This document shows, piece by piece, positions 10,579 through 58,820 of a stretch of 64,000 bases of DNA; within the stretch, counting starts at the first letter, position 1; each line of letters begins with the position of its first letter. This stretch comes from Bacteroidota bacterium. Its GTDB lineage: Bacteria; Bacteroidota; Bacteroidia; Palsa-948. The notes under the pieces were generated by a model. That model had not been told where the DNA came from and ran no database searches. It was given only the letters and a program-made list of their open reading frames with translations. Made by a program: the position numbers and the translations under genes. Location: positions 1-64,000 of the forward strand of contig JACQAL010000052.1 in assembly GCA_016195025.1 (NCBI GenBank). The letters are read 5' to 3'.

Positions 10579-12501
10579 CTATTTCACTCTTTTCTGCGAA
10601 GTGCCATTTCTGCTCTTCTGCACTTCTTCCAATCGCTTCTGTAATTTCTGCTGGAAAGAAGATTTTGGTTTTTCGGGTTTCTTCATGTGCTCGGCAATCT
10701 GCGCATGCAATTTTTTATCGTCCACCAGATATTTTCTGATTACCCACATCTGTAAAAAGCTGATTACGTTCGCAAGCGTGTAATAATAACTCAGCCCCGC
10801 AGAAAATTTATTGAGGAATGGAAGAAACATCACCGGCATAATGTACATCATGTATTTCATTCCGGGCATTTGCTGGTTTTGCGTGCTGCTCATCAGTTGG
10901 CTGTTCATCTGCGTATAAATTAAAGTGGTGATGGTGCAGAGCAGCGCCCACACGCTCACGTGGTCGCCATAAATAAAATCTATCACTGGCACATGCCCGA
11001 AATTCCAAATTGAATCGAACGAAGAAAAATCTTTCACCCACCAGAAACCGTGCTGGCGAAGTTCAATGGATGAAGGAAAAAACCGAACGAGCGCAATGAG
11101 AATGGGCATTTGCAGCAGTGCGGGAATGCATCCGGCAAGCGGGCTCACGCCTGCTTTTCTATAGAGCGCCATGGTTGCCTGCTGCTTTTTCATCGGGTCA
11201 TCCTTGCCGAATTTTTTGTTTATCTCGTCAATTTCCGGTTTCAGAACTTTCATTTTTGCAGACGACACATAGGTTTTATAGGCAACCGGGAAAAGAAGAA
11301 TTTTGAAAACTAAAGTAAGAGCGAGAATAATGAGCGCGTAACTCACATGAATCCCTTCAAGGAAATTAAAAATCGGAATTACCAGAAAACGATTTACCCA
11401 ACCAAAAACTCCCCATCCCAGAGGAATCTGCCGCTCGAGTTCGAGCCCTTCAAATTGTTTCAGCGTTTGATAATGATTCGGTCCGAAATAAAATTTCATT
11501 CCGAAACTTTCATTCGGCTTGTGCGAATAAGGAATGGTGAGGTTTGCAGAAAAATCTTTTATATATTTCTCAGAAGTTTTTTCATTGCGCGAAGTCACAT
11601 CCGCGCCCGACTTGTCAAAAAAATCGTCTGCGATAATCACCGAAGTAAAAAATTGCTGCTTGAACGCCACCCATTTTGTTTTTGCAGAAAGATTTTTTGT
11701 TTCGTCTTTCATCTCGCTGATGTAATCCGGGTCTTCATCCAGATATTTAAAATAAACTGTGGAAGCCGCCTGCTGATTTTTCAGGGTTTGTTCCTGCGAA
11801 GGAATTTTCATCGCCCAGTTCAAACTGAACTCATTCAGGTTGGAAGCCACCACATCCTGCATGCCGACAATATTTAATTTGCAACCGAGCAGGTAAGAAT
11901 TTCCTGCGAGCGAGTATTCGTATTCAATATATTTTGCCTTGTCATTGTTTGCATACAAGCGCATGGAAATTTTTTTCGTTTCGCCTTCTTTCACTTCAAA
12001 TGAAGTTCCGGTTGGCTGAAAAAATAAATCTAGCGTGTTGATGGTGCGGTTATGTTCGGTGTCGAATAAAATTCCGAAGGAAGAAGAATCCTTGTCAAAT
12101 AATTCCAGCGCGGTGGAATCGAAGCGAAAATATTTTTTCAGAAGCACGGAAGAAATTCTTCCGCCTTTCTTTGAAATGGTTGCTTTGAGTTTTTCATTTT
12201 CAATTGTGAAAAATTGGTTCGAGTCATTTGCCGCAGAAGAAAAAACATCATACTTGTTTGCAAGGGCAGAATCAGAAATGGTTGATGGTTGATGGCTGAT
12301 GGCTGATGTATCCTTGCCAACCGCCAACTGCCGACTGCCGACTGTATCTTGTGCCTTCTGCTTCTGAACCAACTCCAGCGAATCTTTTGTGTGCTTTTGT
12401 TTTTCTATTTGTTCCTTCGTTGGCGCGGCATACCACATCCATGCGAACATAATGGCGCAAATCAAACTGATGCCGATAAGAGTGTTTCTGTCTAAGCCCA
12501 T
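10579..12501 (-). CDS. yidC: Membrane protein insertase YidC
   Basis: 640 aa. An N-terminal membrane anchor (MGLDRNTLIGISLICAIMF) is followed by a periplasmic beta-sandwich domain, then the conserved five-helix insertase core. The core shows the YidC/Oxa1 features: basic cytoplasmic loop (SSAKMKVLKPEIDEINKKFG), KKQQATMALYRKAGVSPLAGC, and a final helix near LSYYYTLANVISFLQMW. The C-terminal tail is basic. It inserts membrane proteins with or without SecYEG. Residues about 52-77, in the linker after the anchor, are encoded by two dispersed repeats (12271-12345), giving QLAVGKDTSAISHQPS. This region varies in the family, so function should be kept. A -7 box TATCTTTG lies at 12551-12544. Confidence 0.96.
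   Translation of the reverse strand: MGLDRNTLIGISLICAIMFAWMWYAAPTKEQIEKQKHTKDSLELVQKQKAQDTVGSRQLAVGKDTSAISHQPSTISDSALANKYDVFSSAANDSNQFFTIENEKLKATISKKGGRISSVLLKKYFRFDSTALELFDKDSSSFGILFDTEHNRTINTLDLFFQPTGTSFEVKEGETKKISMRLYANNDKAKYIEYEYSLAGNSYLLGCKLNIVGMQDVVASNLNEFSLNWAMKIPSQEQTLKNQQAASTVYFKYLDEDPDYISEMKDETKNLSAKTKWVAFKQQFFTSVIIADDFFDKSGADVTSRNEKTSEKYIKDFSANLTIPYSHKPNESFGMKFYFGPNHYQTLKQFEGLELERQIPLGWGVFGWVNRFLVIPIFNFLEGIHVSYALIILALTLVFKILLFPVAYKTYVSSAKMKVLKPEIDEINKKFGKDDPMKKQQATMALYRKAGVSPLAGCIPALLQMPILIALVRFFPSSIELRQHGFWWVKDFSSFDSIWNFGHVPVIDFIYGDHVSVWALLCTITTLIYTQMNSQLMSSTQNQQMPGMKYMMYIMPVMFLPFLNKFSAGLSYYYTLANVISFLQMWVIRKYLVDDKKLHAQIAEHMKKPEKPKSSFQQKLQKRLEEVQKSRNGTSQKRVK
12271..12345 (-). repeat. 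Two adjacent in-frame dispersed repeats inside yidC
   Basis: 12271-12308 consists of 'GGTTGATGG/GGCTGATGG' words and 12313-12344 of 'CAACTGCCGACTGCCGACTG' words. Both are read through in frame in the periplasmic linker of YidC. The first family also occurs in ribE (17092-17122). Confidence 0.75.
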
Positions 12502-12604: not shown

Positions 12605-13060
12605 TTACTGCTTGAATCCAACCAGAATGGAAACACAGCCGCTGGGCACCAAGCCGGATGGGGCATCCGAATCGGGAACCATTACTTCGATGGTAAGCTG
12701 CTGGGTGGACTCAACCGAAAAATCCCAGTAATCTGATTTTCCCTGGTCTTTACTGCTGAAGAGTTGGGTTTTGCTTGCATCTTTCATTACAAACCAAACA
12801 TCACCGAGCGTTTCCTGCGCGCCTACCATGATGCGGTAGGTTTGCCCGGAATAAAATGTGAGCGTAAGTTCAGCGTGGTCGCCTGAGAGAAGGACCGAAC
12901 TGTTTATTTGCCCGTTGTGAATGAAAGGCGTTAGTTTTGGAATTTGTTTTTTCACAAATCCTTTACACTGTGCAAACCCTTCGACTTCGCTCAGGGTGAC
13001 AAAGAGAAGCGCAGCAGCGCAAATCAAAATTATTCTTTTGGAGTTGAAAATATTTTTCAT
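12605..13060 (-). CDS. Small secreted protein of unknown function
   Basis: 151 aa with a signal peptide (about residues 1-31), then a compact domain (LTLTFYSGQTYRIMVGAQE, WFVMKDASKTQLFSSKD, TIEVMVPDSD) that looks like an all-beta sensor or binding fold. I cannot name the family. The end of the signal peptide (TLSEVEGFAQ) is encoded by a dispersed repeat (12977-13004). The gene starts 7 bp after the lipoprotein gene 13068-13997 ends, so the two are probably one operon with a shared envelope role. Confidence 0.8.
   Translation of the reverse strand: MKNIFNSKRIILICAAALLFVTLSEVEGFAQCKGFVKKQIPKLTPFIHNGQINSSVLLSGDHAELTLTFYSGQTYRIMVGAQETLGDVWFVMKDASKTQLFSSKDQGKSDYWDFSVESTQQLTIEVMVPDSDAPSGLVPSGCVSILVGFKQ
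12977..13004 (-). repeat. Dispersed repeat in a signal peptide (LSEVEG peptide)
   Basis: The coding strand contains GTCACCCTGAGCGAAG then TCGAAGGG. It encodes TLSEVEG at the end of a signal peptide, at the same relative place as the related copy at 2600-2625. Confidence 0.75.
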
Positions 13061-14083: not shown

Positions 14084-16885
14084 CTAATGGGCTGAGAGCC
14101 AGTCGGAGCCGGTGCCTGCTTCCACTTCAATGGGAACGGAAAGTTTCAGAGCATGTTTCATTTTGTCTTCCACGAGGGGTTTCACGTCTTCAATTTCATC
14201 TTTGTGAACATCAAAAACCAATTCATCGTGCACCTGCAAAATCATTTTCGATTTGAATTTTTTCTTTTGGAATTCTTTCTGGATGTTTATCATTGCAATC
14301 TTAATCATATCCGCAGCGCTGCCTTGAATAGGCGCGTTAATGGCATTGCGCTCCGCAAATCCGCGAACGGTGTGGTTGCTTGAATTAATGTCGCGTAAAT
14401 ATCTTCTTCTTCCTAAAATAGTTTCCACGTATCCTTTTTCTTTAGCGAGTTCAATGCTTTTATTCATGTACTCTTTTATTTTCGGATACTGCGCAAAATA
14501 AGTATCAATAATTCCTTTTGCTTCCGTGCGCGGAATATTCAGCCGCTGCGCCAATCCGAAAGCAGAAATTCCATAGATGATTCCGAAGTTCACCATCTTG
14601 GCATTGCGTCTCATATCTGAATTTACATTATCAATGGGAACATTATAAACTTTTGACGCGGTTGCCGAGTGAATATCGTTTCCGCTTTTGAACGCTTCAA
14701 TCATATTTTCATCTTCGCTCAGCGCGGCAATCACGCGAAGTTCCACCTGCGAATAATCAGCAGAGAGCAAAGTGAAATTATTATTTCGCGGAACAAACGC
14801 TTTGCGGATTTCTCTTCCGCGTTCGGTGCGGATGGGAATGTTCTGAAGATTGGGATTGTCGGAACTTAATCTTCCGGTCACTGCCACAATTTGACTATAT
14901 GTTGTATGAACTCTTCCCGTTCTTGGATTCACCAGTTCCGGAAGTGTATCCACATAGGTGTTTTTCAGTTTCTGCAGTTCGCGGTAATCAAGAATTTTAT
15001 CTATGATAGGATGAGTGCCTTTTAATTTTTCCAGGATGTCTTCACTGGTTGCATGCTGGCCGGTTTTTGTTTTTTTGCTTTTCTCTGCAATCTTCAATTC
15101 TTCAAAAAGAATTTCCCCCACTTGCTTCGGAGAAGAAATATTAAATTCTTTTCCGGCAAGGGAATAAATTTCTTTTTCTGATTTCACAATATCATTTGCA
15201 AGTACGGATGATAATTCTTTCAGCGCGCTGATATCTATTTTTACTCCTTCCGATTCCATAGCGGACAGAACGGGAACGAGCGGCATCTCCACTTCCTCGA
15301 AAAGTTTTTTTGTTTCCGTTTCTTTCAGCATCGGCATAAATTTTTCTCCAAGCTGAAGAGTGATGTCTGCATCTTCCGCAGCGTATTCGCAAATTTGTTC
15401 TGTCGGAACAGCACGCATGCTGAGTTGCCCTTTCCCTTTTTTTCCTATGAGCGTTTCAATGGAAACGGGAGAATAGTGCAAATAGGTTTCGGCAAGAATG
15501 TTCATGTTGTGGCGCATGTCGGGCTGAATGAGGTAATGCGCTATCATCGTGTCGAAAAGTTTTCCTTTTATCTCTATGTCGTACCATTTCAGTACGGACA
15601 TATCGTATTTAATATTCTGCCCGGACTTTTCTATTTTTTCATTTTCAAAAATTTCTTTGAACTCATTTACTATTGCTTGCGCTTCATTGTAATTTTCAGG
15701 AACCGGAATGTAATATGCTTCTGTCGGTTTGAATGAAAAAGATATTCCCACCAGTTCCACGTTGTGCGCATCTGTTCCGGTTGTTTCCGTATCAAAGCAA
15801 ATAGATTTTTGTCTGGATAATTCCGCTATGAGTTTTTTTCTTTTCTCTTTGGTGTCAACCAAATGATACGTGTGCGGAATATCTTTTATCGTGGATAATA
15901 TTTTTGTTGGCTCTTCGGTGAGAATTGTAGTAGTTGTTTCCGTTTTTATTTCTGAAACAACCGTTGTGCCGTTGGTTTTAGCTATAGAAACAGAGGATGT
16001 TTGCGCAACAAAAGTTTCTCCCAAAACTCTTTTCGCGATAGTGCGGAATTCAAGTTCATTAAAAATTTCGGAAAGCATTTCTTTATTTGGAGAAGAAATT
16101 ATTAAATCCTCTTCATCCCATTTCACAGGAACTTCGCAATGAATGGTGGCGAGTTGTTTGGATAGCAATGCCTGCTGAGAAAAGTTCCTCACATTTTCCT
16201 GGAGTTTCCCTTTCAGCTTATCGGCATTTTTTATTACACCTTCCACGCTTCCGAATTCATTCACCAGTTTGATGGCGGTTTTTTCTCCCACGCCCGGAAC
16301 TCCGGGAATATTATCTGCCGAATCGCCCATCAAACCTAAAATATCTTTCACCTGCGCCACATTTTTTATTTCCCATCGCTTGAGAATATCTTCTTCGCGC
16401 AACGTGGTCCAGCCGCTTTTGAATGCGGGCGGACGGAACATAAAAGTTTTATCACTCACCAGCTGTCCGAAATCTTTATCGGAAGTAACCATGTATGTTT
16501 CGTAGCCGTGTTTCTCCGCTTTTTTTGCAAGCGTGCCGATGACATCGTCCGCTTCAAACCCGTCACATTCCAGAACAGGAATTCCAAATCCTTCAAGAAT
16601 TTTTTTTATGTACGGAACAGATGCAATAATATCTTCCGGTGTTGCCTGGCGGTGCGCTTTATATTCGGAATAGACAGTTTCACGTTCGGTTGGTGCATGC
16701 GTATCGAAAGCAACGGCAATGTGCGTGGGCTTTTCTTTATTCAGAAGCTCCAGCAAAATATTTGTGAAGCCAAAAATTGCGGATGTGTTTTGTCCTTTGG
16801 AAGTGACACGCGGAGATTTTACCAACGCATAATACGCGCGGTAGATGAGCGCCATTGCATCTAATAAAAAAAGTTTCTTGTTCAT
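14084..16885 (-). CDS. polA: DNA polymerase I
   Basis: 933 aa with all three domains. The 5' nuclease is at about 1-290 (FLLDAMALIYRAYYA, GFEADDVIGTLAKKA). The 3'-5' exonuclease is at about 345-540, with its acidic residues intact (ICFDTETTGTDAHNVELVG), so proofreading is probably active. The polymerase domain is at 560-933 with motif A (DYSQVELRVIAALS), motif B (RRNAKMVNFGIIYG) and motif C (VHDELVFDV). It fills gaps and removes primers in replication and repair. The gap to the upstream ribE gene (60 bp) is filled by repeat-like words. Next downstream is the lipoprotein operon, which has its own promoter. Confidence 0.97.
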   Translation of the reverse strand: MNKKLFLLDAMALIYRAYYALVKSPRVTSKGQNTSAIFGFTNILLELLNKEKPTHIAVAFDTHAPTERETVYSEYKAHRQATPEDIIASVPYIKKILEGFGIPVLECDGFEADDVIGTLAKKAEKHGYETYMVTSDKDFGQLVSDKTFMFRPPAFKSGWTTLREEDILKRWEIKNVAQVKDILGLMGDSADNIPGVPGVGEKTAIKLVNEFGSVEGVIKNADKLKGKLQENVRNFSQQALLSKQLATIHCEVPVKWDEEDLIISSPNKEMLSEIFNELEFRTIAKRVLGETFVAQTSSVSIAKTNGTTVVSEIKTETTTTILTEEPTKILSTIKDIPHTYHLVDTKEKRKKLIAELSRQKSICFDTETTGTDAHNVELVGISFSFKPTEAYYIPVPENYNEAQAIVNEFKEIFENEKIEKSGQNIKYDMSVLKWYDIEIKGKLFDTMIAHYLIQPDMRHNMNILAETYLHYSPVSIETLIGKKGKGQLSMRAVPTEQICEYAAEDADITLQLGEKFMPMLKETETKKLFEEVEMPLVPVLSAMESEGVKIDISALKELSSVLANDIVKSEKEIYSLAGKEFNISSPKQVGEILFEELKIAEKSKKTKTGQHATSEDILEKLKGTHPIIDKILDYRELQKLKNTYVDTLPELVNPRTGRVHTTYSQIVAVTGRLSSDNPNLQNIPIRTERGREIRKAFVPRNNNFTLLSADYSQVELRVIAALSEDENMIEAFKSGNDIHSATASKVYNVPIDNVNSDMRRNAKMVNFGIIYGISAFGLAQRLNIPRTEAKGIIDTYFAQYPKIKEYMNKSIELAKEKGYVETILGRRRYLRDINSSNHTVRGFAERNAINAPIQGSAADMIKIAMINIQKEFQKKKFKSKMILQVHDELVFDVHKDEIEDVKPLVEDKMKHALKLSVPIEVEAGTGSDWLSAH

Positions 16886-16945
16886 GAATTGTTATATGAT
16901 TCTAATATACGAATTGTACTAATGATACAAATAAAACAAATGATA
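16886..16945. repeat. Intergenic repeat of 'TACGAATTGTACTAATGATAC' type words
   Basis: The 60-bp gap between polA and ribE consists of short related words (ATACGAATTGTACTAATG, ATGATACTAATAATGG). They resemble the arms of the foldback at 6691-6797. Confidence 0.45.
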
Positions 16946-17590
16946 CTAATAATGGAGGGAAGAAAAAGTTTTATGGATGTGCTTTGCGAGAATGTCAAAC
17001 TCGATATTCACTTCATTGCCGACTTTCAGCGATTTGAAATTAGTGTGAGAAAAAGTGTGAGGGATGATGGCAACGGAAAAAGACAATGGTTTATGTTGAA
17101 TGGTTGATGGTGGATGGTTAACAGCCACAACAGTTAATGAAACTCCGTTAATGCAAATGCTTCCTTTGTCAATAATTAAACTTTTGAATTTTGAATTTTG
17201 AATTTTGAATTGAAATAGCCAACTTCCTTTCTCTTTCTTAATTGATTTAACTTTCGCTGTTGTATCCACATGCCCCTGCACAAAATGCCCATCCACCCTG
17301 TCGCCAACTTTCAGCGGACGTTCTAAATTTATTTCATCGCCAACTTTTAATTTTCCGAGATTGGTTCTGGAGAGAGTTTCTTTTATTGCAGTAACCGAAT
17401 AAATTCCCCTCTCCTTTTTAAGGAGAGAGGTTGGGGGTGAGGTCACGGTCAGGCACACTCCATTATGCGCCACGCTTTGTCCTTCTTTCAATTCATTTGC
17501 GAAAGAAGATTCAACGATGAACGTACTGTTTCCTTTTTCTTTTTTTATGGAAACAATTTTTCCAGGCGCTTCAATGATTCCTGTAAACAT
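16946..17590 (-). CDS. ribE: Riboflavin synthase alpha chain with repeat-encoded inserts
   Basis: 214 aa in the usual two-barrel layout. It starts MFTGIIEAPGKI, has the barrel motifs VAHNGVCLTV and GHFVQGHVDTTA in the first half and ICINGVSLTVVAV in the second. It dismutates 6,7-dimethyl-8-ribityllumazine to riboflavin. Three stretches coincide with dispersed repeats: TSPPTSLLKKERG (17406-17444), FKIQNSKFKS (17182-17212) and NHPPSTIQHKP (17092-17122). Against my memory of E. coli RibC (the same enzyme), the first and third look like insertions of about 7-9 residues in loops; the middle one replaces a segment of equal length. The enzyme is probably still functional, since all core motifs are intact. 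Confidence 0.93.
   Translation of the reverse strand: MFTGIIEAPGKIVSIKKEKGNSTFIVESSFANELKEGQSVAHNGVCLTVTSPPTSLLKKERGIYSVTAIKETLSRTNLGKLKVGDEINLERPLKVGDRVDGHFVQGHVDTTAKVKSIKKEKGSWLFQFKIQNSKFKSLIIDKGSICINGVSLTVVAVNHPPSTIQHKPLSFSVAIIPHTFSHTNFKSLKVGNEVNIEFDILAKHIHKTFSSLHY
17092..17122 (-). repeat. In-frame 'GGTTGATGG' repeat inside ribE
   Basis: Words TGAATGGTTGATGGTGGATGG encode NHPPSTIQH on the minus strand. The same family is in yidC at 12271-12308. Confidence 0.7.
17182..17212 (-). repeat. In-frame 'TTTGAATT' tandem repeat inside ribE
   Basis: Four near-identical 8-bp units (TTTTGAAT) encode KIQNSKFKS. The protein length at this point matches homologues, so the DNA may be a converted or coincidental tract. 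Confidence 0.65.
17406..17444 (-). repeat. Palindromic 'CCCCTCTCC' repeat inside ribE
   Basis: CCCCTCTCCTTTTTAAGGAG followed by AGAGGTTGGGGGTGAGGTC. The same element, complementary and over nearly 40 bp, is in the DUF1365 gene at 58432-58472. Here it encodes TSPPTSLLKKERG. Confidence 0.85.
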
Positions 17591-17626
17591 GCGTGACGAA
17601 TGTACAAAAGAATTGCGCGGGGCTTC

Positions 17627-20380
17627 TTACTCGTGGCTCAGGATGGTAACATTTCCTTTCAGCGCGCGCGGAACAATTCCTTCGAGGCGGATGTCATTCA
17701 CAATGCAGATGTAATAATACACGCCATCGGAGCAAAGTTTGTTTGTCTGCGAACTTTTTCCGTTCCACATGATTTCCGCGTCAGTGGTGTGGAATACTTC
17801 CGTGCCCCAGCGGTTGTAAATGCGGATGTCAATATCCTTTACATATTTATACGGATGCAGCGGAGTGAAATAATCGTTGGAGCCGTCCGCGTTGGGCGTG
17901 AACACATTCGGCAACTCGTAGTACGGGCAATTATCCACGCACACCACATTGCTGAACGCGCTTTGGTTTCCGAAGGAATCAACGGCAGTAACCGCATAGC
18001 ATCCGGCAATGGAATTTAAACTATCGTGAAGGAAAGAAGTGATGCTGATGGTATGAATGGTATCGAGCACGGAATACTCTCCGTTCTGAACAGGCGTATA
18101 ATAAATGATATAATAGATTGCATCGTTGCTGCAGGAGTTGTTCGGGTTGGTCCAGGTTAAAAGATTTTGCTGGAGAATGCAACTGGAATCAATGGCGAGC
18201 GCGGGCGGGCAGGGCGGAGTTTTATCTATTGCCGCGCAGCAAAGTTCCTGTGACCAATTAATCAATGGCGATGGAAGCGATGGGTCGGCATACGCGCCCG
18301 TGCTCCTCACTTTATAACAGTAAACGGTATCGTTGGCAAGTCCGGTGTCGGTAAAAGTTTGCAGCGTGGTAGTAGTGGCAATGGAATCCCAGTTGCCGGT
18401 GAAATGATTTTTGCGGAACACATCGTATTGTGAATTGAGCCACGGCACCTGCTCGTTCCATGTAATTTGAATTTGATTATCGCTGGGATTGCAGGAAAGA
18501 AAAACCGAAGATGCTTTCTGCGCCTGGCATGGGTTGGTAGTAGTTCCATAATGAAAATCCACACGGTAAGTATATCCCGAAGCGGAAGTGCCAAGCGGGG
18601 TGTCGGTATAAGTGGTGTCAAGCGCGGCAAAAGAATTATTGGTGAAAGAAGCAATGAGAGCGGAAGGCGTGCAGTTGCCTGCGCAGCGGTATAAATTAAT
18701 GGTGAATGGCGGGCCATTAAGCGTATCAATTCCTCCGAGCGCAGTATCGGTGAGCGGCTTCAGCCATTTAATAAACATGCTTCCGTTTGCTCCTGTGCTT
18801 ATCACGCTCACGTTAGTCATAATCGGAACATCCCGCCTGAGTTCGTTGCAGGCAGGAGCCGAAGCATAACTTTCTGCGCCATCGCTGTAATAGGCAACCA
18901 CACGGTAGGCGTAAATAATTCCATGCGTGAGCCCGTTCCCGTTGTTGTTGTCGGTGTAAGAAGTAATGCTCTTGCCCACGGTGGCAATGAGCGAATAGCC
19001 CCACGCTGCCGGAACGCTCGTTTGGCAATAGCCGGGCACGTTGGAATCGCAGCCAATGGCGCGGTAAATTTTATATCCCTTAAAAACATTGCCGGTGGTT
19101 TGGCTGCAGAGGGCGGCATCCCATTTCAAATTCATTTCGGAGCAATGAGGGGAAGCGGAAAGGTTTTTCGGAGCGGGCGCAATCACGGTTATGTTAAACG
19201 ATGCGAACGCAGAAAGAGGCATGGGCGGACTATCGGGCAGCCCGTCATCGGTGGTTTTGAGCGTAACGGTATAGGGAGAACTTCTCACTTCTTTGCAATC
19301 GGGTTTCCAGGAGAAAGTGCCGGTGGCAACAGGCGTATTCAATCCCGTAACTGAAAAAGTGGCTGCGGGAGTGAGCGTGAAGGGGTTTCCGGCAGCCGTA
19401 AAAAGCGTTATGTTGTGTCCATCGGGGTCGGTGGCGGTAACGGTGAGCGTGAGAGAGGTGTTGGCTTCAATGCAGGTATCGTGCGCTGAAATCACAGGCG
19501 GGTCGTTGGCGCAATCGCAAACGGTTACCTGCATATCTCTGCGCACGGTGCCTGCGAGCGCATAACTTCCGTCCCCAATTTTTCTCCACTGCTCAATGTC
19601 AATGGCAAAGTTCCATTCATCGCAATCGGGGTCGTTTTGCGGAAAGGGAGGAACATTCCAGATAAAATCTCCGGTAAGCGCATTCACCGAAACACCGGAA
19701 GGAAGCCAGTAGCCGGAAATGGGCAGGTTGGCATCTTCGTAGCACACTCCGAGTTTATAGGATAAACTATCATTGTCAGGGTCTACTGCGCCCGGGTTGT
19801 GAATGAATAATTTTCCTGCGCAGGCGCGGTCAATGGGGCAGTAGTTGAGAACGGGCGATGAGTTGCAGCCGATGAAAGGATTTATGATTAACGTATCCTG
19901 TATGCTGAAAGGGGTTTTTACCTGATTGCCGGGAATATTTATGATGCCGTTGTTGCGGTTGGGGTCGGTCATGGAAATAATATAAGCACCAGGACCGGGA
20001 TACGTATGCGTAATGGTGTAAACATTTTTTTTCACATCAATGCTTTGCAGGTTCACCCCGCAGGCAGTTGACCATTCGCCCATGTGATGCGTGGAGCAGG
20101 GATTGCCATTGCCACCGCAATTTGCTGTCCAGGGGTCGGAAGTGGGGTCGCCCGGTTCATAGTTGGCGCGGCAAACGGTATAGTGTGCGGTATCGTCTCC
20201 AAAGTTAATCATGAGAGAGCAGCGGTCTGCCGCGTTGCTGCTGCCTTTGGTGTAGGTGGTGATGGTGATGGAATACGTGAGCCCGCCAAGGCAGGTATAG
20301 GTGATTTCTCCTGCGCGCTCATGCGTTGCATGAGAGAAGAAAGGGAAAAGAATTAAAAGTATGAGCGCTGTTTTTTTCAT
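17627..20380 (-). CDS. Secreted protein with fibronectin-like domains and T9SS type B sorting domain
   Basis: 917 aa. The signal peptide (MKKTALILLILFPFFSHA) is followed by an N-terminal Cys-rich module (HERAGEITYTCLGG). Cadherin-like/Ig-like segments follow, then several fibronectin type III-like domains (for example residues 420-800, NLSASPHCSEMNLKWD). The C-terminus (about 825-917) is the gliding-motility-associated type B sorting domain: LPNVFTPNADGSNDYF ... IYNRWGTEVFHT ... GVYYYICIV. The protein should cross the outer membrane by the type IX system and stay at, or be released from, the surface. An adhesive role is inferred. It lies 36 bp upstream of ribE but is probably transcribed separately. 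Confidence 0.9.
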   Translation of the reverse strand: MKKTALILLILFPFFSHATHERAGEITYTCLGGLTYSITITTYTKGSSNAADRCSLMINFGDDTAHYTVCRANYEPGDPTSDPWTANCGGNGNPCSTHHMGEWSTACGVNLQSIDVKKNVYTITHTYPGPGAYIISMTDPNRNNGIINIPGNQVKTPFSIQDTLIINPFIGCNSSPVLNYCPIDRACAGKLFIHNPGAVDPDNDSLSYKLGVCYEDANLPISGYWLPSGVSVNALTGDFIWNVPPFPQNDPDCDEWNFAIDIEQWRKIGDGSYALAGTVRRDMQVTVCDCANDPPVISAHDTCIEANTSLTLTVTATDPDGHNITLFTAAGNPFTLTPAATFSVTGLNTPVATGTFSWKPDCKEVRSSPYTVTLKTTDDGLPDSPPMPLSAFASFNITVIAPAPKNLSASPHCSEMNLKWDAALCSQTTGNVFKGYKIYRAIGCDSNVPGYCQTSVPAAWGYSLIATVGKSITSYTDNNNGNGLTHGIIYAYRVVAYYSDGAESYASAPACNELRRDVPIMTNVSVISTGANGSMFIKWLKPLTDTALGGIDTLNGPPFTINLYRCAGNCTPSALIASFTNNSFAALDTTYTDTPLGTSASGYTYRVDFHYGTTTNPCQAQKASSVFLSCNPSDNQIQITWNEQVPWLNSQYDVFRKNHFTGNWDSIATTTTLQTFTDTGLANDTVYCYKVRSTGAYADPSLPSPLINWSQELCCAAIDKTPPCPPALAIDSSCILQQNLLTWTNPNNSCSNDAIYYIIYYTPVQNGEYSVLDTIHTISITSFLHDSLNSIAGCYAVTAVDSFGNQSAFSNVVCVDNCPYYELPNVFTPNADGSNDYFTPLHPYKYVKDIDIRIYNRWGTEVFHTTDAEIMWNGKSSQTNKLCSDGVYYYICIVNDIRLEGIVPRALKGNVTILSHE

Positions 20381-20796: not shown

Positions 20797-21007
20797 GAAC
20801 ATTTTGAAGGTCTTCAAATACTATTTGTAGCGCTGCAAATATTATTTGGAGAACTCACCGATTATTTTGAAGTACCGCAAAATATATTTGAAGTACTGCA
20901 AACTTATTCTGAAGCGCTGCAAATACTATTTGCAGTACTCACCGATTATTCTGAAGAACTGCAAACTATATTCGAAGCGCTGCAAACTTATTTTGAAGCA
21001 CTGCAAA
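20797..21007. repeat. Degenerate 21-bp tandem repeat array, about ten units
   Basis: Units of exactly 21 bp follow each other, for example TACTGCAAACTTATTCTGAAG (20 of 21 bases shown: TACTGCAAACTTATTCTGAA), then CGCTGCAAATACTATTTGCA-G. Each ends in (G)AAG or similar and most contain CTGCAAA; two units carry ACTCACCGATTATT instead. On the plus strand one frame is open from 20785 to the TAA at 21015-21017 and gives heptads such as FEVLQTY, SEALQIL, SEELQTI, FEALQTY. There is no ATG or GTG start in that frame. Confidence 0.85.
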
Positions 21008-21039
21008 TAAATTGGTAAGTGCGGTAACTGCCGCGGTTG

Positions 21040-32286: not shown

Positions 32287-35200
32287 ATGAAACGACTTTT
32301 TCTTCTCCTCACATTATTCATTATCCATTATCCATTATCCATTTTATTTTCCCAGGAAACTTTTCCCACCAATGGTGCTCCTGACAAACGCCATACTTAT
32401 TATGCTTTCACCAATGCAAAAATTATTATTGATTATCAAACCACCATTGAAAAAGGAACACTACTTATTAAGGATGGAATTATTGTTGACGCTGGAACAA
32501 CGGTTGCCATTCCGAAAGGCGCAGTGGCGTATGACTTAAAGGGAAAAAACATTTATCCCTCGCTCATTGATATTTACACAACGTACGGAATGCCCCTCCC
32601 CGAAATGAAAAAGCCGGGCGATAGAATGTTTTATCGCGGGCCGCAGATGGAAAGCAATATCAAAGGCGCGTATGGCTGGAACCAGGCGATTCATCCCGAA
32701 ACAGAAGCCGATAAAATTTTTACCAAAGATTCAAAGAGCGCGGAAGAGTGGCGCAAACTTGGTTTCGGTGCGGTGATGAGTTTCAAGAAAGATGGAATCG
32801 CGCGCGGCTCTGCCGTTTTTGTCTCGCTGGCGGACGAAAAAGAAAATCAAATCATCCTGAAAGAAAAAGCCGCTGCCATGTATTCGTTCGACAAAGGAAC
32901 CAGCACGCAGGATTATCCGAGTTCACAAATGGGAAGCATCGCCTTGCTGCGCCAAACATATTATGACGCGCAGTGGTATAAATCCCAAATTACAAATCCC
33001 AAATCCCAAATAGAATACAATATTTCTCTCGAGGCATGGAGTAAATTGCAAACTCTTCCGCAGATTTTTGAAGTGAATGATAAACTTTCTGCATTGCGCG
33101 CAGATAAAGTTTGTGACGAGTTCAAAATTCAATACATCATCAAAGGTGCGGGCGATGAATACCAGCGCATGGATGAAATAAAAAACACCAACGCAAAATT
33201 TATTCTTCCGCTGAAATTTCCGATGCCCTACGATGTGGAAGACGCGTACGATGCTTCGCTCATTTCCTATTCCGATTTGAAACACTGGGAAATGGCGTCC
33301 ATGAATCCATCGGCATTCGAGAAAAAAAATATTCCGTTCGCGCTCACAACAGATGGGCTGAAAGAAAAAAATATGTTCTGGAAAAATCTCCGCAAGGCGA
33401 TTGAATACGGGCTTTCAGAAAAAGAAGCGCTCAAAGCATTAACACTTTCTCCTGCTGAAATGCTCGGCATGCAAAATCAAATCGGCTCGTTGAAAAAAGG
33501 AATGGTGGCAAACTTTATCATCACTTCCGGAAATTTGTTTGACGAGAAAACTTCCATCTATGAAAACTGGGTGCAGGGAAAGCAATACGTGATTAAGGAG
33601 AAAGATATGCCCGACCTTCGCGGGAATTATAAATTGGAAGCGGAAAATAAAATTTACAATCTGAAAATTTCCGGTGATGCGGAAAAGCCAAAAGCCGATA
33701 TCAGCATTCCGGTTCCGAATTCAAAAAAAGATTCAGCGAAAGTTTCTGCGGAGTTTTCTGTGGCGGGGAAATTAGTTTCCATGAATTTTATTTTCAAAGG
33801 CGACAGCGGCACAACGCGCTTCAGCGGAAATGTTGAGAATGAAAATCCTGCCACAATAAAAGGGAAAGGTCAATTGTCGAATGGGCATTGGGTAAACTGG
33901 ACTGCAACATATTTATCCGAACTTCCGAAAGACACAGCAAAAAAAGATTCCACGAAAAAGGAAATCGTGAAACATTATCCAACCCTGGATGATGTGATTT
34001 ATCCTTTCAATGCATACGGACAAAAGAAAATGGCTGAGCAACTTCCCAAAGCAATTCTTATAAAGAATACTACTGTCTGGACAAATGAGCCGGAAGGCAT
34101 TTTGAAAAATCAGGATGTGATTCTTTTCAATGGAAAGATTATTAATATGTCTGGCGGTGCAACGATTGATTCAGCAACTACTGCAAAATATTTAGTCATA
34201 GATGGAACAGGGAAGCATCTCACTCCCGGAATCATTGACGAACATTCTCACATCGCCATTTCAAACGGAGTGAACGAAAGCGCGCAGGCATCGAGCGCGG
34301 AAGTTCGGATTGGAGATGTGATTGACTGCGATGATATAAATATTTATAGAAATCTTTCGGGCGGAGTGGTGGCTTCGCAGTTGCTTCACGGCAGTGCAAA
34401 TCCCATTGGAGGGCAATCGGGAATTATAAAACTCCGCTGGGGAAAATCTCCCGAGGAAATGAAAATAAAAGGCGCGGACGGCTTCATCAAATTCGCGCTC
34501 GGAGAAAATGTGAAGCAAAGCAACTGGGGCGACTTCAACACCGTTCGCTTTCCGCAAACGAGAATGGGTGTTGAGCAGGTTTACTTTGATTATTTCACCC
34601 GCGCGAAAGAATATTCTTCAAAGTGGAAAGCATTTGGCGATGGAATGAAAGGAAATAAAACTACTGCCGGAATTCCAGAAATAGATTTTCTCGAATCATT
34701 AATTTATGGTTCTGCTCCACAAAATATTTCTTCCACTGTTGCAATGCCGAGAAGAGATTTGGAACTCGATGCCATTTCAGAAATCCTGAACAAGAAAATA
34801 TTTATCACCTGCCATTCGTATGTGCAGAGCGAAATCAACATGCTCATGCACGTGGGCGATTCAATGGGCTTCCGCGTAAATACATTCACGCATATTCTCG
34901 AAGGATATAAAGTGGCGGACAAAATGAAAGCGCGCGGCATTGGCGCTTCTACTTTTTCAGATTGGTGGGCGTATAAGATGGAAGTGAAGGAAGCGATTCC
35001 CTACAACGCTGCTCTCATGGAAAAAATGGGAATTGTTACCGCGATTAATTCCGATGACGCGGAGATGTCACGCAGGTTAAATCAGGAAGCAGCAAAGTCA
35101 GTGAAGTATGGAAATCTTTCCGAAGAAGAAGCGCTGAAACTTTGCACGATTAATCCCGCGAAACTTTTGCATTTAGATTCTCACATGGGAAGCATCAAGG

Positions 35201-35463
35201 TTGGAAAAGATGCCGATGTTGTTTTGTGGACGGATAATCCTCTTTCCGTTTACGCGAAAGTTGACAAAACAATTATTGACGGACAAATTTATTTTGATGC
35301 CGACACCGATAAAAAACTCCGCGATGACATACGCACCGACCGCGCGCGCATTATTAATTTAATGATTCAGGCGAAGAAAGGCGGTGAGCCAACGCAAAAA
35401 CCCGAGAAGAAAGAAAAGAAGGAATATAACTGCCGTGAGGAATTGGAAAATTCGGAATATTAA
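32287..35463 (+). CDS. Secreted double amidohydrolase
   Basis: 1058 aa with a signal peptide (about 1-23). It carries two amidohydrolase-like halves. In the first (about 38-440) the expected metal-binding HxH after the 'P(G)LID' strand is missing (NIYPSLIDIYTTYG), so it is probably catalytically dead. The second (about 590-1040) keeps it (LTPGIIDEHSHIAI, near residue 652) with a later His (FTHILEGYKVADK) and Asp (AINSDDAEMSRRL). The family is close to imidazolonepropionase-like hydrolases; the substrate is unknown. Two repeat-like tracts are read in frame: one in the signal peptide (32311-32344, IIHYPLSILF) and one near residue 233 (32981-33011, KSQITNPKSQIE). Confidence 0.88.
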   Translation: MKRLFLLLTLFIIHYPLSILFSQETFPTNGAPDKRHTYYAFTNAKIIIDYQTTIEKGTLLIKDGIIVDAGTTVAIPKGAVAYDLKGKNIYPSLIDIYTTYGMPLPEMKKPGDRMFYRGPQMESNIKGAYGWNQAIHPETEADKIFTKDSKSAEEWRKLGFGAVMSFKKDGIARGSAVFVSLADEKENQIILKEKAAAMYSFDKGTSTQDYPSSQMGSIALLRQTYYDAQWYKSQITNPKSQIEYNISLEAWSKLQTLPQIFEVNDKLSALRADKVCDEFKIQYIIKGAGDEYQRMDEIKNTNAKFILPLKFPMPYDVEDAYDASLISYSDLKHWEMASMNPSAFEKKNIPFALTTDGLKEKNMFWKNLRKAIEYGLSEKEALKALTLSPAEMLGMQNQIGSLKKGMVANFIITSGNLFDEKTSIYENWVQGKQYVIKEKDMPDLRGNYKLEAENKIYNLKISGDAEKPKADISIPVPNSKKDSAKVSAEFSVAGKLVSMNFIFKGDSGTTRFSGNVENENPATIKGKGQLSNGHWVNWTATYLSELPKDTAKKDSTKKEIVKHYPTLDDVIYPFNAYGQKKMAEQLPKAILIKNTTVWTNEPEGILKNQDVILFNGKIINMSGGATIDSATTAKYLVIDGTGKHLTPGIIDEHSHIAISNGVNESAQASSAEVRIGDVIDCDDINIYRNLSGGVVASQLLHGSANPIGGQSGIIKLRWGKSPEEMKIKGADGFIKFALGENVKQSNWGDFNTVRFPQTRMGVEQVYFDYFTRAKEYSSKWKAFGDGMKGNKTTAGIPEIDFLESLIYGSAPQNISSTVAMPRRDLELDAISEILNKKIFITCHSYVQSEINMLMHVGDSMGFRVNTFTHILEGYKVADKMKARGIGASTFSDWWAYKMEVKEAIPYNAALMEKMGIVTAINSDDAEMSRRLNQEAAKSVKYGNLSEEEALKLCTINPAKLLHLDSHMGSIKVGKDADVVLWTDNPLSVYAKVDKTIIDGQIYFDADTDKKLRDDIRTDRARIINLMIQAKKGGEPTQKPEKKEKKEYNCREELENSEY
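32311..32344 (+). repeat. In-frame 'CATTATC' tandem tract in a signal peptide
   Basis: Four to five copies of CATTATC/CATTATT encode FIIHYPLSILF, the hydrophobic core of the amidohydrolase signal peptide. Confidence 0.6.
32981..33011 (+). repeat. In-frame 'AATCCCAAAT' tandem tract inside the amidohydrolase
   Basis: AATCCCAAATTACAAATCCC then AAATCCCAAAT encode KSQITNPKSQIE between two conserved helices. Confidence 0.6.
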
Positions 35464-37847: not shown

Positions 37848-40800
37848 CTACCTGAAGAGGATAACTCGCTTGTTCACCGTTCCTTTTTCGGTAACTATTT
37901 CAAGGTTATAAACTCCTTCGGTGAAGTTGCGCGTGTTGATTTCATATTTGCGCTTTGTGATGCCGCTTGTTCCGCTGGAAGTATATTTCGCATTGGTGAG
38001 TGCGCTCACTCTGTCGCCCAGCGTATTTATCATGTAAATATCTATGGGCGATTCAAGCGTGGTGTTGAACTCAAGCGTGAATGCATCTATGGCGGGGTTC
38101 GGATAAATCAGAACATTTTCTACCGGAACATTTATCATTGGAACTCCCAGCGGATTCACCTGTACAATAATTGTTTTACTGCCGGAACATCCGTATTGAT
38201 TTGTTCCGGTAACAGTGTAGGTAGTTGTTACGCTCGGGGAAACAATAATTGTCTGCGTGGTTTGCCCGCCTGGCGCCCACGAATAAGTTACCGCATTGTA
38301 AGCAGTGAGCGTTGCCGATTGTCCAATCACTATGGAAGTTGAATACGTATTCGCAGTTACCGGAGGATTCGGATTAATCGTAAGCACTGCCGTATCGGAA
38401 ACAGAATTTCCGCAGCCCGCAGCATAATTCGCAACATAGAAAGTATAGGTTCCCACTGCTGAAATTCCGGTGTTGAAACTATTTCCTGAACCTGCCATGT
38501 TAATAAGTGTTGCATCGGTGAACCACTGAGGATTATTTCCGGTGGAAGTAAGCACGGCAGGATTTCCATAGCAGAGCGCAGTATCATTCGCAGTGGGTTT
38601 CACAGGAGCAGGATTAATAATGAGTGAAACAGAATCGGCTCCGCTGCTCACGCATCCGCTCAAACTATCTTTCACCCAGTAGGTGTAAACGCCCACCGCA
38701 GTTTGGCCGGTGTTGAAAGTATTTCCGGTGTTCACCAGGTTCGTGAGCGATGGATTGCTGTACCACATCGGGTTGAAGCCGGTGGAAGTAAGAGGCGGAA
38801 TTGGATTTCCGAAGCAGGCAGTTACATTGTTCGCAACAGGAATAGCAGGAGAAGTTATAATGGAAAGCGTGGAAGTATCGGCAGCGCTTTCACAACCCGT
38901 TACAGAATCTTTCTGTGTTACATAATAAAAATAATTTCCGGGAGAAGTTTGCCCGGTTGTGAAAGAATTTCCTGTGAAGACAAGCGTCCATGAAGTATCA
39001 TACCACTGCACATTTGTTCCGATTGCGGTGAGATTCGGAATTGAAGAAGCCGAACAAACGGTTGTATCAAGCGCAGCGGGCGCAGAAGGCAGCACATTAA
39101 TCGTAAGCAGAACGGAATCTTTCAAACTTGCACAGCCGGTCATGGAATTGGTTTGCGTTGCATAGTAAGTGTAGGTTCCCACAGCAGTTTGTCCTGTTGA
39201 AAAAGTATCTCCGCTGAACACAACCATCATGGAAGTATCGTACCATTGAACATTTGTTCCAACGAAAATTAAATCGGGAACGGAATTGCCGAAGCAAACG
39301 CTCGTATCATTTACAGAAGGAGTTGCCGGCAGGGAATTAATTGTAAGCATTGCCGTATCCGATGGTCCTTGCGGGCAGCCGGGCGTGCTGTCAGTCGCAA
39401 AGAATGTATAAGTGCCAACACCCGTTAATCCTGTTGGATATGGATTTCCACTGAAAACAAAATTCGTAAGCGCAGCATTGCTGTACCAATTAATAATTGT
39501 TCCGGTGGTTGCATTCAAATCAGGAATTGCAGAGCCGAAGCAGGCAGACGTATCGGAAACAACCGGAGCGGCTGTGGGTTGAGTGCTGATGATAAGCAGC
39601 ACCGCAACCGGCACACTGGAGCAGGCAGTCACTGTGTTTGTCTGCGTTACATAATAGGTATAAGTTCCCGCAGCAGTTTGCCCGGTATTGAAAGTGTCTC
39701 CGCTGAACACAAGCGTCATGGAAGTATCGTACCATTGAATGTTTGTTCCGGCTGCCACCAGCGGAGGAACAAGCGCTCCGAAACATACTGCCACATTTGA
39801 AGTGGAAGGAGCAGAAGCCGCATTGATTGTAAGCAGAACGGTATCACCCAAACTTTCGCAGGTGGTTACCGTGTTTGTCTGCGTGGCAATGAATGTATAA
39901 GTGCCTGGCGAAGTTACTCCGCTCGCAAACGGGCTTCCTGTTCCTACCAAAGTCATAAATCCATCGTACCACTTAATAGTTGTTCCGCTTGCGGTTAAAT
40001 CAGGAGTGGGATTGCCGTAGCAAATTGCCGTATCGTTCATTGCAACAGGAGAAGAGGGAAGCGCATTGATGATAAGTGTTGCAGTATCAGCCGGACCTTC
40101 GCATCCGTTTACGATTTGCGTTACATAATACGTATAGGTTCCGGCAGCAGTTTGCCCTGTGGCAAATGAGGTTCCGGTAAATACCATTGCTCCGGAAGTA
40201 TCATACCATTGAATATTTGTTCCCGTTGCGGTCAAATCAGGAATCACTGAACCGAAGCACGCGCTCTGGCTGGAAGTGGTTGGCGCAGCAGGAAGCGGAT
40301 TGATGATAAGATATACCGTGTCGCTTGAACTTTGCACGAAGTTTACTGTTTGCGTTACATAATAAGTATACGTTCCCACAGCCGTTTGTCCCGTAGGAAA
40401 TGGATTTCCGGAAAATACAAGATTGGTGAGCGCGGCATCATCGTACCATTGAAGATTTGTTCCTGTTGCCGTTAAATCAGGAACGGGCTGCCCGAAGCAA
40501 ACCGTATCGTTCACTCCAAGCGGTGCTCCCGGCACTATGGTAAGAAGCAGAGTGTCTTTTGCGCTTTCGCAGCCGTTCATGGTTTGCGAAACATAGTATG
40601 TGTAAGTTCCTACCGCAGTTTGCCCGGTGTTGTAAGAATTCCCGCTTCCCACTAACGTGAGTGAAGCATCATACCACTGCACATTTGTTCCGCTGGCGGA
40701 AAGAACAACCGGAGGTCCTCCGAAAATAACCGTAGTGTCATTTACCGCAAGTGCAGGAGTGAAATTTATTTTGAAGAGTACAGTATCGGACGGTCCTTTG

Positions 40801-43800
40801 CATCCGCTGGAAGTTTGCGTTACATAATAGGTATAGGTTCCCGATGCAGTTACGGTTGGAGTGAAAGGGCTTCCGCTGAATTCAAGAAGGGTTGTTGCCG
40901 CATCGTCCCACCATTCAATGTTTGTTCCTGCCGCGGTGAAAGATGAATTGGGAGAACCAAAACAAACTGAATCGCTCTGCGGAGAAGACATGGGCGCAGC
41001 AGGAAGAGGATTAATGGTTACACTGACAGTTGCTGCCGCACCGGTGCATCCGCTTGCAGTTGCGGTTACAGAATAAGTTCCGCTTGAAGCAGAGGTTGCA
41101 TTTGTAATAGTTGGATTCTGCAAAGAAGAAGTAAATCCATTGGGTCCGTTCCAGTTATAAGTCGGGCTTCCGCTGGCGCTCGCAGTCAAACTCAATGTTT
41201 GCCCTTCGCATACGGGAGAATTGCTTCCCGCACTTGGCGCTGAAGGAATCGGATTCACCGTTACAGAAACTGTGGATGCAGGACCTGCACATCCGAATTC
41301 AGTTGCCGCAACAGAATAAGTTCCTGTGGCAGCAGTGGTTGCAGCAATGATGACGGGATTCTGCGATGAAGAAGTAAATCCATTTGGTCCGCTCCATGAA
41401 TATGTCGGGCTTCCGCTTGTGTTTGCGGTCAAACTCAAATTACTTCCATCGCAAATCGGAGAATTGCTTCCCGCTGCAGGAGCCGATGGAGTTTGATTTA
41501 TAGTTACCGAAGTTGTTCCAGCCGCGCTTTGAGGACATCCTGCATTAATTGCAACTACCGAATACGTTCCGCTTGCAGAAGTTGTTACACTTGCAATGTT
41601 GGGATTCTGTGCGGTGGAAGTAAATCCATTCGGTCCGTTCCAATTATATGCTAAACCGGAATTCGATGCAGTCAAACTTAATGTTTGACCGGAGCAAACC
41701 GGAGAATTGCTTCCGGCTGTTGGAACCGAAGGCGGAGTATTTACAATCACCGTGGTTGTTCCCGCAGCGCCTGTGCATCCGTTTTCGGTGGACGTTACAG
41801 AATAAGTTCCTGCATCGGCAGTTCCCGCAGAAACAATAACCGGATTTTGTGCGGTGGAAGTAAATCCATTTGGTCCGTTCCAGTTGTAAATTGCTCCAAC
41901 ACCTGCAACAGCAGTTAAACTCAAATTATCTCCCGTGCAAACCGGAGAATTGTTTCCTACTGCAGGCGCAGCAGGAATCGGATTCACCGTTACAGAAGTT
42001 GTTCCTGCAGGACCCGTGCATCCGAATTCAGTTGCTGTTACAGAATAATTTCCAGATGCGGCAGTTGTCGCAGCAACAATGACAGGATTTTGTGAAGCCG
42101 AAGTAAATCCGCTTGGACCATTCCATGAATAAGTCGGGCTTCCACTTGTGCTCGCTATTAAACTTAAATCCGTTCCCGCGCAAATCGGAGAATTGCTTCC
42201 GGCAGCAGGCGCAGAGGGAGATTGATTAATCGTAACTGAAACCGTTCCCGCAGAACTTGTCGGGCATCCCGAAACAGTAACCGTTACCGAATAAGTTCCG
42301 CTTGCAGCAGTGGTTACGCCTGCAATGATTGGATTTTGCGCAGTGGAAGTAAATCCATTCGGTCCGTTCCAGTTATAAGTTGCACCGCTGACTGTGCTTG
42401 CCGTCAAACTTAAAGTTTGTCCGGAGCAAACAGGAGAGTTGCTTCCTGCTGTCGGAGTTCCCGGAGGAGGATTCACGGTTACGCTTACAGTTCCCGCAGG
42501 ACCTGTGCAGCCAAATGCAGTTGCTGTTACAGAATAAGTTCCGCTTGCAGAAGTTGGCGCAGCAACTATGACAGGATTTTGCGAAGTGGAAGTAAATCCG
42601 CTCGGACCATTCCATGAATAAGTCGGACTTCCGCTTGCGCTCGCTGTTAAACTTAAATCGGTTCCTGCACAAATCGGAGAATTGCTTCCGGCAGTCGGAG
42701 CAGATGGAGTTTGATTAATCGTTATCGAAGTTGTTCCTGCCGCGCTGATCGGACAACCCGGAACACTTGCCGTTACAGAATAATTTCCGCTTGCGGCAGT
42801 AGTGACGCTTGCTATATTTGGATTTTGTGTGGTAGAAGAAAATCCATTCGGCCCATTCCAGTTATAAGAATTTCCTGAATTAGATGCAGTCAAACTTAAT
42901 GTTTGTCCGGAGCAGACAGGAGAATTGCTTCCTGCTGTTGGAACGGAAGGAGGATTATTTACAACCACAGAAGTTGTTCCCGCAGGACCAGTGCATCCGT
43001 TTTCAGTTGCAGTTACAGAATAATTTCCGGCATTAATTGTTCCGGCAGAAGCAATCACAGGATTTTGCGAAGCGGAAGTAAATCCATTCGGTCCGTTCCA
43101 ATTATAAGTCGGACTTCCGCTTGTGCTTGCTGTTAAACTTATGTTATCTCCCACGCAAACCGGACTATTGCTTGATGCAACAGGAGCCGATGGTGTTTGA
43201 TATACGGTTACGCTGGTTGTTCCCGCAGCGCTTGGCGCACAGCCGGGATTAATTGCAATAACAGAATAAGTTCCGTTTGCTGCAGTGGAAACCGAAACAA
43301 TAACCGGGTTCTGCGAGGTGGAAGAAAATCCATTTGGGCCCGTCCATGAATAAGAAGCGCCTGTGGAAGTGGCAGTCAAACTTAAATTTTGTCCCGAGCA
43401 AACAGGAGAATTGCTTCCGGCAGTTGGCGCAGCAGGCGGAGGATTCACAATTACATTCACGGTTCCGGCAGGACCTGTGCAGCCATTATCCGTAGCAGTT
43501 ACCGAATAGGTTCCGGCATCGGTTACCGATGCAGAAATAATTACCGGATTCTGAAGCGTGGAAGAAAATCCATTCGGTCCGTTCCAATTATAAGTGGAAC
43601 TTCCCATCGTGCTTGAAGTTAAACTTAAATTATTTCCCGTACAAATCGGAGAATTGCTTCCGGCAATTGGCGCAGCAGGCGTTTGATTTACTATCACGGA
43701 AGTTGTTCCTGCAGGACCCGTGCATCCGTTTTCCGTTGCAGTTACTGAATAAGTTCCGCTGCCAAGCGTGGTGATATTGCTGATGGTTGGATTTTGTAAG

Positions 43801-58010: not shown

Positions 58011-58820
58011 TTATTTGTAAGACCTGTATACTTCCCGCTGCAAATCTATATGCGAATTCTTTTTGTGGTATGGAATTTTTTTCAACCATAGCTTGAACGC
58101 ATTCCAGTGAATCAAAGATATGATTTGTAAAGTTATAAACGGGAAGCGGATGGCGTACCAGAATAATCTTGAATTGGTAAGTTCTTTTCTTGTGCCCGTG
58201 AGTGTAGTGATGATTATTTTATTATTGTCTTTTGCAAGTGTATCAATTTTTATATTCAGTTTTTCATCAGGAATTCCAATATTAAAATCGAACTGTGTAT
58301 CCATATCTGTAAAAGGAGAAACGTAAAAGTGCTTTGTGGTGTTGAGATGGAATTTCTTACCGTAAAAGTTTTCTTTGCTGAGGAAGAATGGTTTCATTTC
58401 CCTGTAAGTGTTGCTGATTTCAACAACACAAGACCTCACCTCCAACCCCTCTCCTTGAGAAGGAGAGGGGAGTATGAAGTAAAACGAAACAGGATTGAAC
58501 TGGTATCCGAATGTGCAGAGGTTTGTAAGAAGAAATATTTTTTCATTTTTCAATTCAATTCCGTTTTGTTTCAGGTAATCTCTGATATGTTCTTTAGTTG
58601 ATTTTGTTTTATCGGGATTTTCTTTTGGCAGTTGCAGATGGTCTTTGTCGCGGAAGTTGAAAACATTAAAACGATTCCTGCTGATGAAGAAAAACTTTTT
58701 TGCGAGAACATCAATTTCATCCCAATCAATATAGAACATGAACACATTGTAATGAAATCGGTGTTGCTTCGGTTCAAAGCGATGGTGCATTACTTGCGCT
58801 CTGTATAAACAGGAATTCAT
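58011..58820 (-). CDS. DUF1365 protein with a repeat-encoded insert
   Basis: 269 aa from the ATG at 58820, which overlaps the stop of the oxidoreductase gene by 4 bp (ATGA). The frame is open to 58850 but that lies in the neighbour. DUF1365 pattern: NSCLYRAQVMHHRFEPKQHR, TNLCTFGYQFNPVSFYF, KHFYVSPFTDMD. Genes of this family are regularly next to CFA-type methyltransferases and an FAD oxidoreductase, as here, and a lipid role is likely, though the reaction is not known to me. After FYFILP the peptide SPSQGEGLEVRS is encoded by the dispersed repeat at 58432-58472. Confidence 0.88.
   Translation of the reverse strand: MNSCLYRAQVMHHRFEPKQHRFHYNVFMFYIDWDEIDVLAKKFFFISRNRFNVFNFRDKDHLQLPKENPDKTKSTKEHIRDYLKQNGIELKNEKIFLLTNLCTFGYQFNPVSFYFILPSPSQGEGLEVRSCVVEISNTYREMKPFFLSKENFYGKKFHLNTTKHFYVSPFTDMDTQFDFNIGIPDEKLNIKIDTLAKDNNKIIITTLTGTRKELTNSRLFWYAIRFPFITLQIISLIHWNAFKLWLKKIPYHKKNSHIDLQREVYRSYK
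58432..58472 (-). repeat. 'CCCCTCTCC' palindromic repeat inside the DUF1365 gene
   Basis: GACCTCACCTCCAACCCCTC then TCCTTGAGAAGGAGAGGGG. It aligns over nearly 40 bp with the complement of 17406-17444 in ribE. Both genes are on the minus strand, so the element has opposite orientations relative to coding and is in frame in both. Confidence 0.85.

Follow-up and report, generated by a model that had tools for sequence, protein, structure and literature searches.

Heptamer arrays and short palindromes lie in frame in riboflavin synthase and other conserved genes of a Bacteroidota genus

The window, i.e. the whole stretch of 64,000 nucleotides analysed (Bacteroidota bacterium, assembly GCA_016195025.1, contig JACQAL010000052.1, positions 1 to 64,000), contains the riboflavin synthase gene ribE (Table 1). 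The encoded protein matches the equivalog HMM NF006767 with 221 bits against a cut-off of 155, and its two Lum_binding stretches and MFTG start identify it as a riboflavin synthase. An earlier note on this DNA had placed three repeat tracts inside the gene, and all three, which are referred to as sites 1, 2, and 3, are found there. Like its interpretation as a whole, the assignment of the tracts to three families by the earlier note is supported in part: sites 2 and 3 are both heptamer arrays, while site 1 is indeed a different kind of repeat, a palindromic element.

Table 1. Positions of ribE, its in-frame tracts, and further repeats in the window
Feature	Position	Strand	Description
ribE, riboflavin synthase	16946..17590	-	214 aa, intact frame
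RibE site 1, palindromic element	17406..17444	-	39 nt; palindrome plus half-repeat; gene strand ACCTCACCCCCAACCTCTCTCCTTAAAAAGGAGAGGGG
RibE site 2, heptamer array	about 17182..17212	-	(AAAATTC)4.3; aa 127-137, QFKIQNSKFKS
RibE site 3, degenerate heptamer array	17085..17122	-	AACCATC/AACCATT; C-domain hairpin loop
Site 1 palindrome, intergenic copy	58433..58470	-	repeat match within the window
yidC heptamer array	12278..12308	-	peptide TSAISHQPSTI
yidC second heptamer array	12316..12344	-	peptide TVGSRQLAVG
Palindrome-type repeat, signal peptide of ORF 12605-13060	12974..13000	-	read as VTLSEVEGF
Heptamer array of amidohydrolase 32287-35463, signal-peptide core	32312..32343	+	TLFIIHYPLSI
Amidohydrolase heptamer array	32993..33011	+	peptide TNPKSQI

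The site 1 element encodes residues 49–62, VTSPPTSLLKKERG, in the hairpin loop of the N-domain. Its palindrome has 14 copies in the genome at no more than three mismatches, and the reversed pattern has none. Site 2 reads (TTTTGAA)4.3 on the forward strand with 100% matches, and its periodicity is reached by no codon-shuffled version of ribE. Site 3, encoding VNHPPSTIQHK (residues 157–167) and neighbours, is a degenerate 7/14-mer with 85% matches. Its lag-7 identity is 20/31 (p=0.004 vs codon shuffles), and 31 of 38 positions are identical to those of a homogeneous AACCATT array. A search of the window against Rfam returned no family match, and neither did the plasmid collection contain a match to the site 1 palindrome.

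The AlphaFold model of RibE has a mean pLDDT of 91.2 and finds its best PDB match in 1i8d (TM 0.87). In this model, site 1 lies between strands 45–51 and 63–68, and site 3 lies between strands 150–158 and 170–175, where the confidence falls to 66. The two sites are equivalent β-hairpin loops of the two lumazine-binding domains, the hairpins being GQSVAHNGVCLTV-loop-YSVTAIKETL and KGSICINGVSLTV-loop-FSVAIIPHTF, respectively. Both are surface hairpins. The earlier suggestion that the outer tracts lengthen loops is borne out, and the conserved motifs are intact, as had also been stated. The middle tract does not extend a loop. Site 2 comprises the end of strand 123–130 and the helix 133–138, and is only one residue longer than in relatives from the class. 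Hence, it is mainly a replacement.

The genus is represented by seven genomes (G000–G006, with G000 being the genome under study), whose species tree is (G000, G004, G005, ((G001,G006),(G002,G003))). RibE of the six other genomes shows 62–66% identity. Palindromes are present at site 1 in G000, in G003 in degenerate form, and in G006 as a larger compound insert, and are absent from the sisters G001 and G002 and from G004 and G005. Site 3 is of the heptamer type in G000 and G003, holds a palindrome from a different family (CTCCCC..GGGGGAG) in G002, G004, and G005, and is a short loop in G001 and G006. By our reading of these states on the species tree, sites 1 and 3 would each require at least three changes. 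Heptamer arrays occupy site 2 in six genomes, with a unit that is different in nearly each (AAAATTC, AAAGTTC, AAAATCC, CAAGTCT, and CAAGTCA); G003 is degenerate at this site. The tract peptides were also looked for in distant orthologues, and 24 relatives from the class lack them, which leaves the earlier view of the tracts standing on this point. The G006 insert at site 1 (L050, G006:C175:3000-6500) is ~27 residues longer than in the sister species and looks like several nested palindromes. In G002 (L023), the C-terminus of RibE, NIPIAIGIK, resembles a reading of the CCCGATAGCTATCGGG palindrome; judged from this resemblance, it is possibly a fourth RibE position used by a repeat.

The abundance of such tracts was measured in a 539 kb sample of G000. 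The 472 kb of coding sequence therein contains 83 heptamer, octamer, or palindrome tracts, one per 5.7 kb. At least one tract is found in 61 of the 390 genes and at least three in five, as counted by a uniform detector that misses the degenerate tract among the three of RibE. Period-7 tandem arrays number 30 in the 539 kb, and arrays of periods 4–6 number zero. Other affected genes include those for arginyl-tRNA synthetase (ArgS, three arrays), YidC (two), a heptosyltransferase (two), and an amidohydrolase (two). The earlier note had regarded the crowding as unexpected in a small essential gene. The five genes with at least three tracts rule out that RibE is uniquely crowded, and its tracts are not specific to it but belong to a genome-wide and genus-wide population. 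Repeats of other kinds also occur in the window. A 4626-aa protein, probably a large surface or secreted protein, is encoded at 37848-51725 and contains a 243-nt tandem array (~15 copies, 41044-44567) and further repeat sets. The coding sequence at 53488-54641 has dense 15/21/120-nt repeats with lysine-alanine-aspartate-rich units of the AKADA type, and a tandem array of 21/42/84-nt units (TTTGAAGCACTGCAAATATTA-like) is located at 20803-21009, where no gene was called.

We aligned five genes over the genus, namely those of RibE, ArgS, YidC, the heptosyltransferase, and the amidohydrolase. At sites known from G000, a micro-repeat is present at 30 of 68 orthologous positions, compared with 7 of 6742 windows from the rest of these genes; as these windows overlap, the p-value of the comparison is nominal. 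The occupant of a site may differ in kind. Near residue 236 of the amidohydrolase (the 32993..33011 site), G000 has a heptamer array, G004 has a full in-frame palindrome (TPLSSGRGAGGEV), and G001, G003, G005, and G006 have short empty sites. At one ArgS site, G000 and G006 carry heptamers, and G002, G003, and G005 carry palindromes. All three states, heptamer, palindrome, and empty, are thus found at a single site in both the amidohydrolase and RibE (site 3). The yidC gene of G006 (L180) has one in-frame TAA within the matched stretch, which may stem from decay to a pseudogene, an error of assembly, or damage by a repeat.

Heptamer arrays that share a site have a common register relative to the codon alignment, while the unit differs in all copies. 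Between G004 and G006, the differences at RibE site 2 fall on the unit positions as 5,0,0,5,1,1,3, and between G000 and G002, those in ArgS fall as 0,0,4,0,0,0,4 (p<0.001 for each); some other pairs are non-significant in this test of parallel change, and the pairs share history and are hence non-independent. Selection at the codon level explains the parallel unit changes poorly because the phase of a 7-mer relative to the codons shifts from one copy to the next. We infer that the units are homogenised without net change of length; selection for the pattern of the peptide could alternatively maintain the register. Units also recur between loci. At a lower threshold, 57 arrays give 58 pairs with the same canonical unit, compared with 2.6 expected from the genome's own 7-mers and a maximum of 10 in 1000 draws, and the AACCATC unit accounts for nine arrays on its own. 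Since 7 cannot be divided by 3, each of the three frames of a heptamer array free of stops yields one and the same cycle of seven residues. Such an array is therefore open wherever it lands on that strand, and selection would act only on net length and folding. This frame arithmetic may be the reason why periods 7 and 8 are tolerated. No enzyme is known to make such arrays. Within the open-licence literature, our searches turned up neither a report of them from coding sequence of Bacteroidota nor a description of their concerted, frame-independent mode.

The placement of the repeats was compared with that in other Bacteroidota, using simple codon-model gene calls made for this analysis and samples of 366 kb from relatives, 1.36 Mb from control loci, and 400 kb from class genomes rich in P1, the family of the RibE site 1 palindrome. 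In the genus, 33 period-7 arrays are in coding sequence and 8 are intergenic (coding fraction 0.87), while the 80 control loci have 2 and 15, respectively (Fisher p=1.5e-6). Likewise, P1 is found 17 times in coding sequence and 12 times between genes in the genus, as opposed to 1 and 17 times in stretches of four P1-rich outgroups (p=2e-4). The family also occurs outside the genus, with 73 of 149 class genomes carrying it; what differs is its placement in coding sequence. The peculiarity of the genus lies in where the repeats are placed, not in their kind. One gene of a P1-rich genome outside the genus (L265, G052:C10, CDS 16604-19249) combines a P1 palindrome with a heptamer array; mixed invasion is thus not strictly confined to the genus.

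Genes for Y1 transposases (Y1_Tnp) are present in six of the seven genus genomes. P4 palindromes (L221) and P6 palindromes (L230) flank or cluster by such genes, but P1 does not as a rule. G001 has no Y1_Tnp match yet nine P1 copies, and the correlation between P1 and Y1 copy numbers is weak (rho 0.71, p=0.07, n=7). The view that Y1 transposases drive all palindromes is thus unsupported. In G000 (L173, G000:C19, 1457-1476 and 2056-2075; L221), two CCCCGACATAAATGTCGGGG-type palindromes flank a Y1 transposase gene; one of the pair is inside a neighbouring coding sequence, so that the arrangement resembles a REPtron-like unit with an intragenic REP.

These elements resemble several known systems in part. 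Rickettsia palindromic elements (RPE-1 to RPE-7) and the WPEs of Wolbachia lie in frame in conserved genes at sites common to orthologues, and for RPE-4/6/7 the choice between hotspot and divergence was left open (PMC3767692; PMC2229807). The repeats described here share this behaviour, not membership. RPEs are 100–150 bp palindromes of Rickettsiales, whereas the site 1 element has 39 nt and belongs to a Bacteroidia genome; more generally, the elements of this Bacteroidota genus are 20–40 nt long, comprise several unrelated palindrome families as well as heptamer arrays, and replace one another at one site. GTAG/CGTC REPs are short, at times intragenic palindromes associated with Y1 transposases (PMC3733652, PMC3116915). 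The P4 palindromes flanking a Y1 transposase gene are similar in this respect, but the site 1 element has neither GTAG nor CGTC on either strand, and no transposase partner is apparent for P1. The site 1 element lacks the defining features of both RPEs and GTAG/CGTC REPs and belongs to neither group. The heptameric repeats of Xanthomonas and Nostoc (GGGAATC type) and the heptanucleotide repeats of cyanobacteria have a 7-nt unit, mostly in four units, and are dispersed in the genome; they are G-rich and under-represented in coding regions (PMC4692102). The arrays of this genus likewise have a 7-nt unit, about four copies, and a dispersed distribution, but are A-rich or mixed, mostly coding, and variable in unit. 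In YPO1552 of Yersinia, a MITE-derived repeat forms part of a signal peptide (PMC2229807), whereas heptamer arrays supply signal-peptide parts repeatedly within one genome here.

Taken together, these data make it likely that the ribE tracts are genomic micro-repeats, neutral or slightly deleterious, which entered the frame at loops tolerating extra residues. They are best read as selfish or neutral elements that resemble Rickettsia palindromic elements and intragenic REPs and are recurrently turned over. The palindromes would arrive via a REP-like copy-and-insert process, partly linked to IS200-like Y1 transposases, and such a process is plausible. The heptamer arrays would grow to about four units and then be rewritten unit by unit, via transient misalignment or conversion with other arrays, which would alter the peptide and keep the length. 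Purifying selection would then leave the repeats in loops, linkers, and signal peptides. Replication slippage in place, with each array arising in a freely variable loop and with neither a genome-wide pool nor movement, could also yield arrays of about four units, conserve their register between species, and change the units in concert, and loops tolerate such change. We nevertheless regard it as unlikely: local slippage alone does not predict that unrelated loci coincide in their units, a single-unit step would shift the frame, and slippage cannot produce palindromic families whose near-identical copies number dozens in each genome.

That the repeats are kept for a function, as hairpins in the mRNA, as regulatory G/C elements, or as useful loops or signal peptides, would accord with the position of heptamer arrays in proteins, as 14 of the 41 in coding sequence begin within the first 30 residues (2.4 expected, start codons as called) and often form the hydrophobic core of an apparent signal peptide. 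N-terminal placement may, however, reflect tolerance, and the corresponding site of sister species is occupied by a different family, a different peptide, or no repeat at all; given also the Rfam result for the window, we consider a maintained function improbable to a still greater degree. Removal of the inserts from RNA or protein, or their origin as artefacts of metagenome assembly, is hardly conceivable. Although all seven genomes have the look of draft assemblies, the frames are open nearly throughout these independent assemblies, the one exception being the YidC of G006 with its stop, and the flanks are orthologues at 63–80% identity. RibE site 2 has no net insertion relative to the sisters, so there is nothing to excise. 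Among these readings, recurrent turnover of neutral or selfish micro-repeats remains the one that we prefer. A more far-reaching proposal, which we find doubtful though worth stating, is that, throughout the genomes of this genus, the frame-independent heptamer arrays of protein loops are actively written and rewritten by an unknown process.

Most of what is known about repeat insertion within the genes of conserved bacterial proteins comes from Rickettsiales and scattered REPs, and for these earlier systems it is unclear whether orthologous inserts represent hotspots or diverged descendants. As the seven genomes show heptamer, palindrome, and empty states of one loop, recurrent replacement is directly visible here, and parallel unit change at a fixed register in essential genes makes both the rewriting process and its cost testable. 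The findings suggest a concrete source, at the DNA level, of loop length variation and signal-peptide cores in proteins, and point to tiny repeats that are still colonising protein loops throughout the genome. If arrays were actively rewritten, essential proteins of the genus would undergo a concerted, repeat-driven renewal of their loops on the time scale of species.
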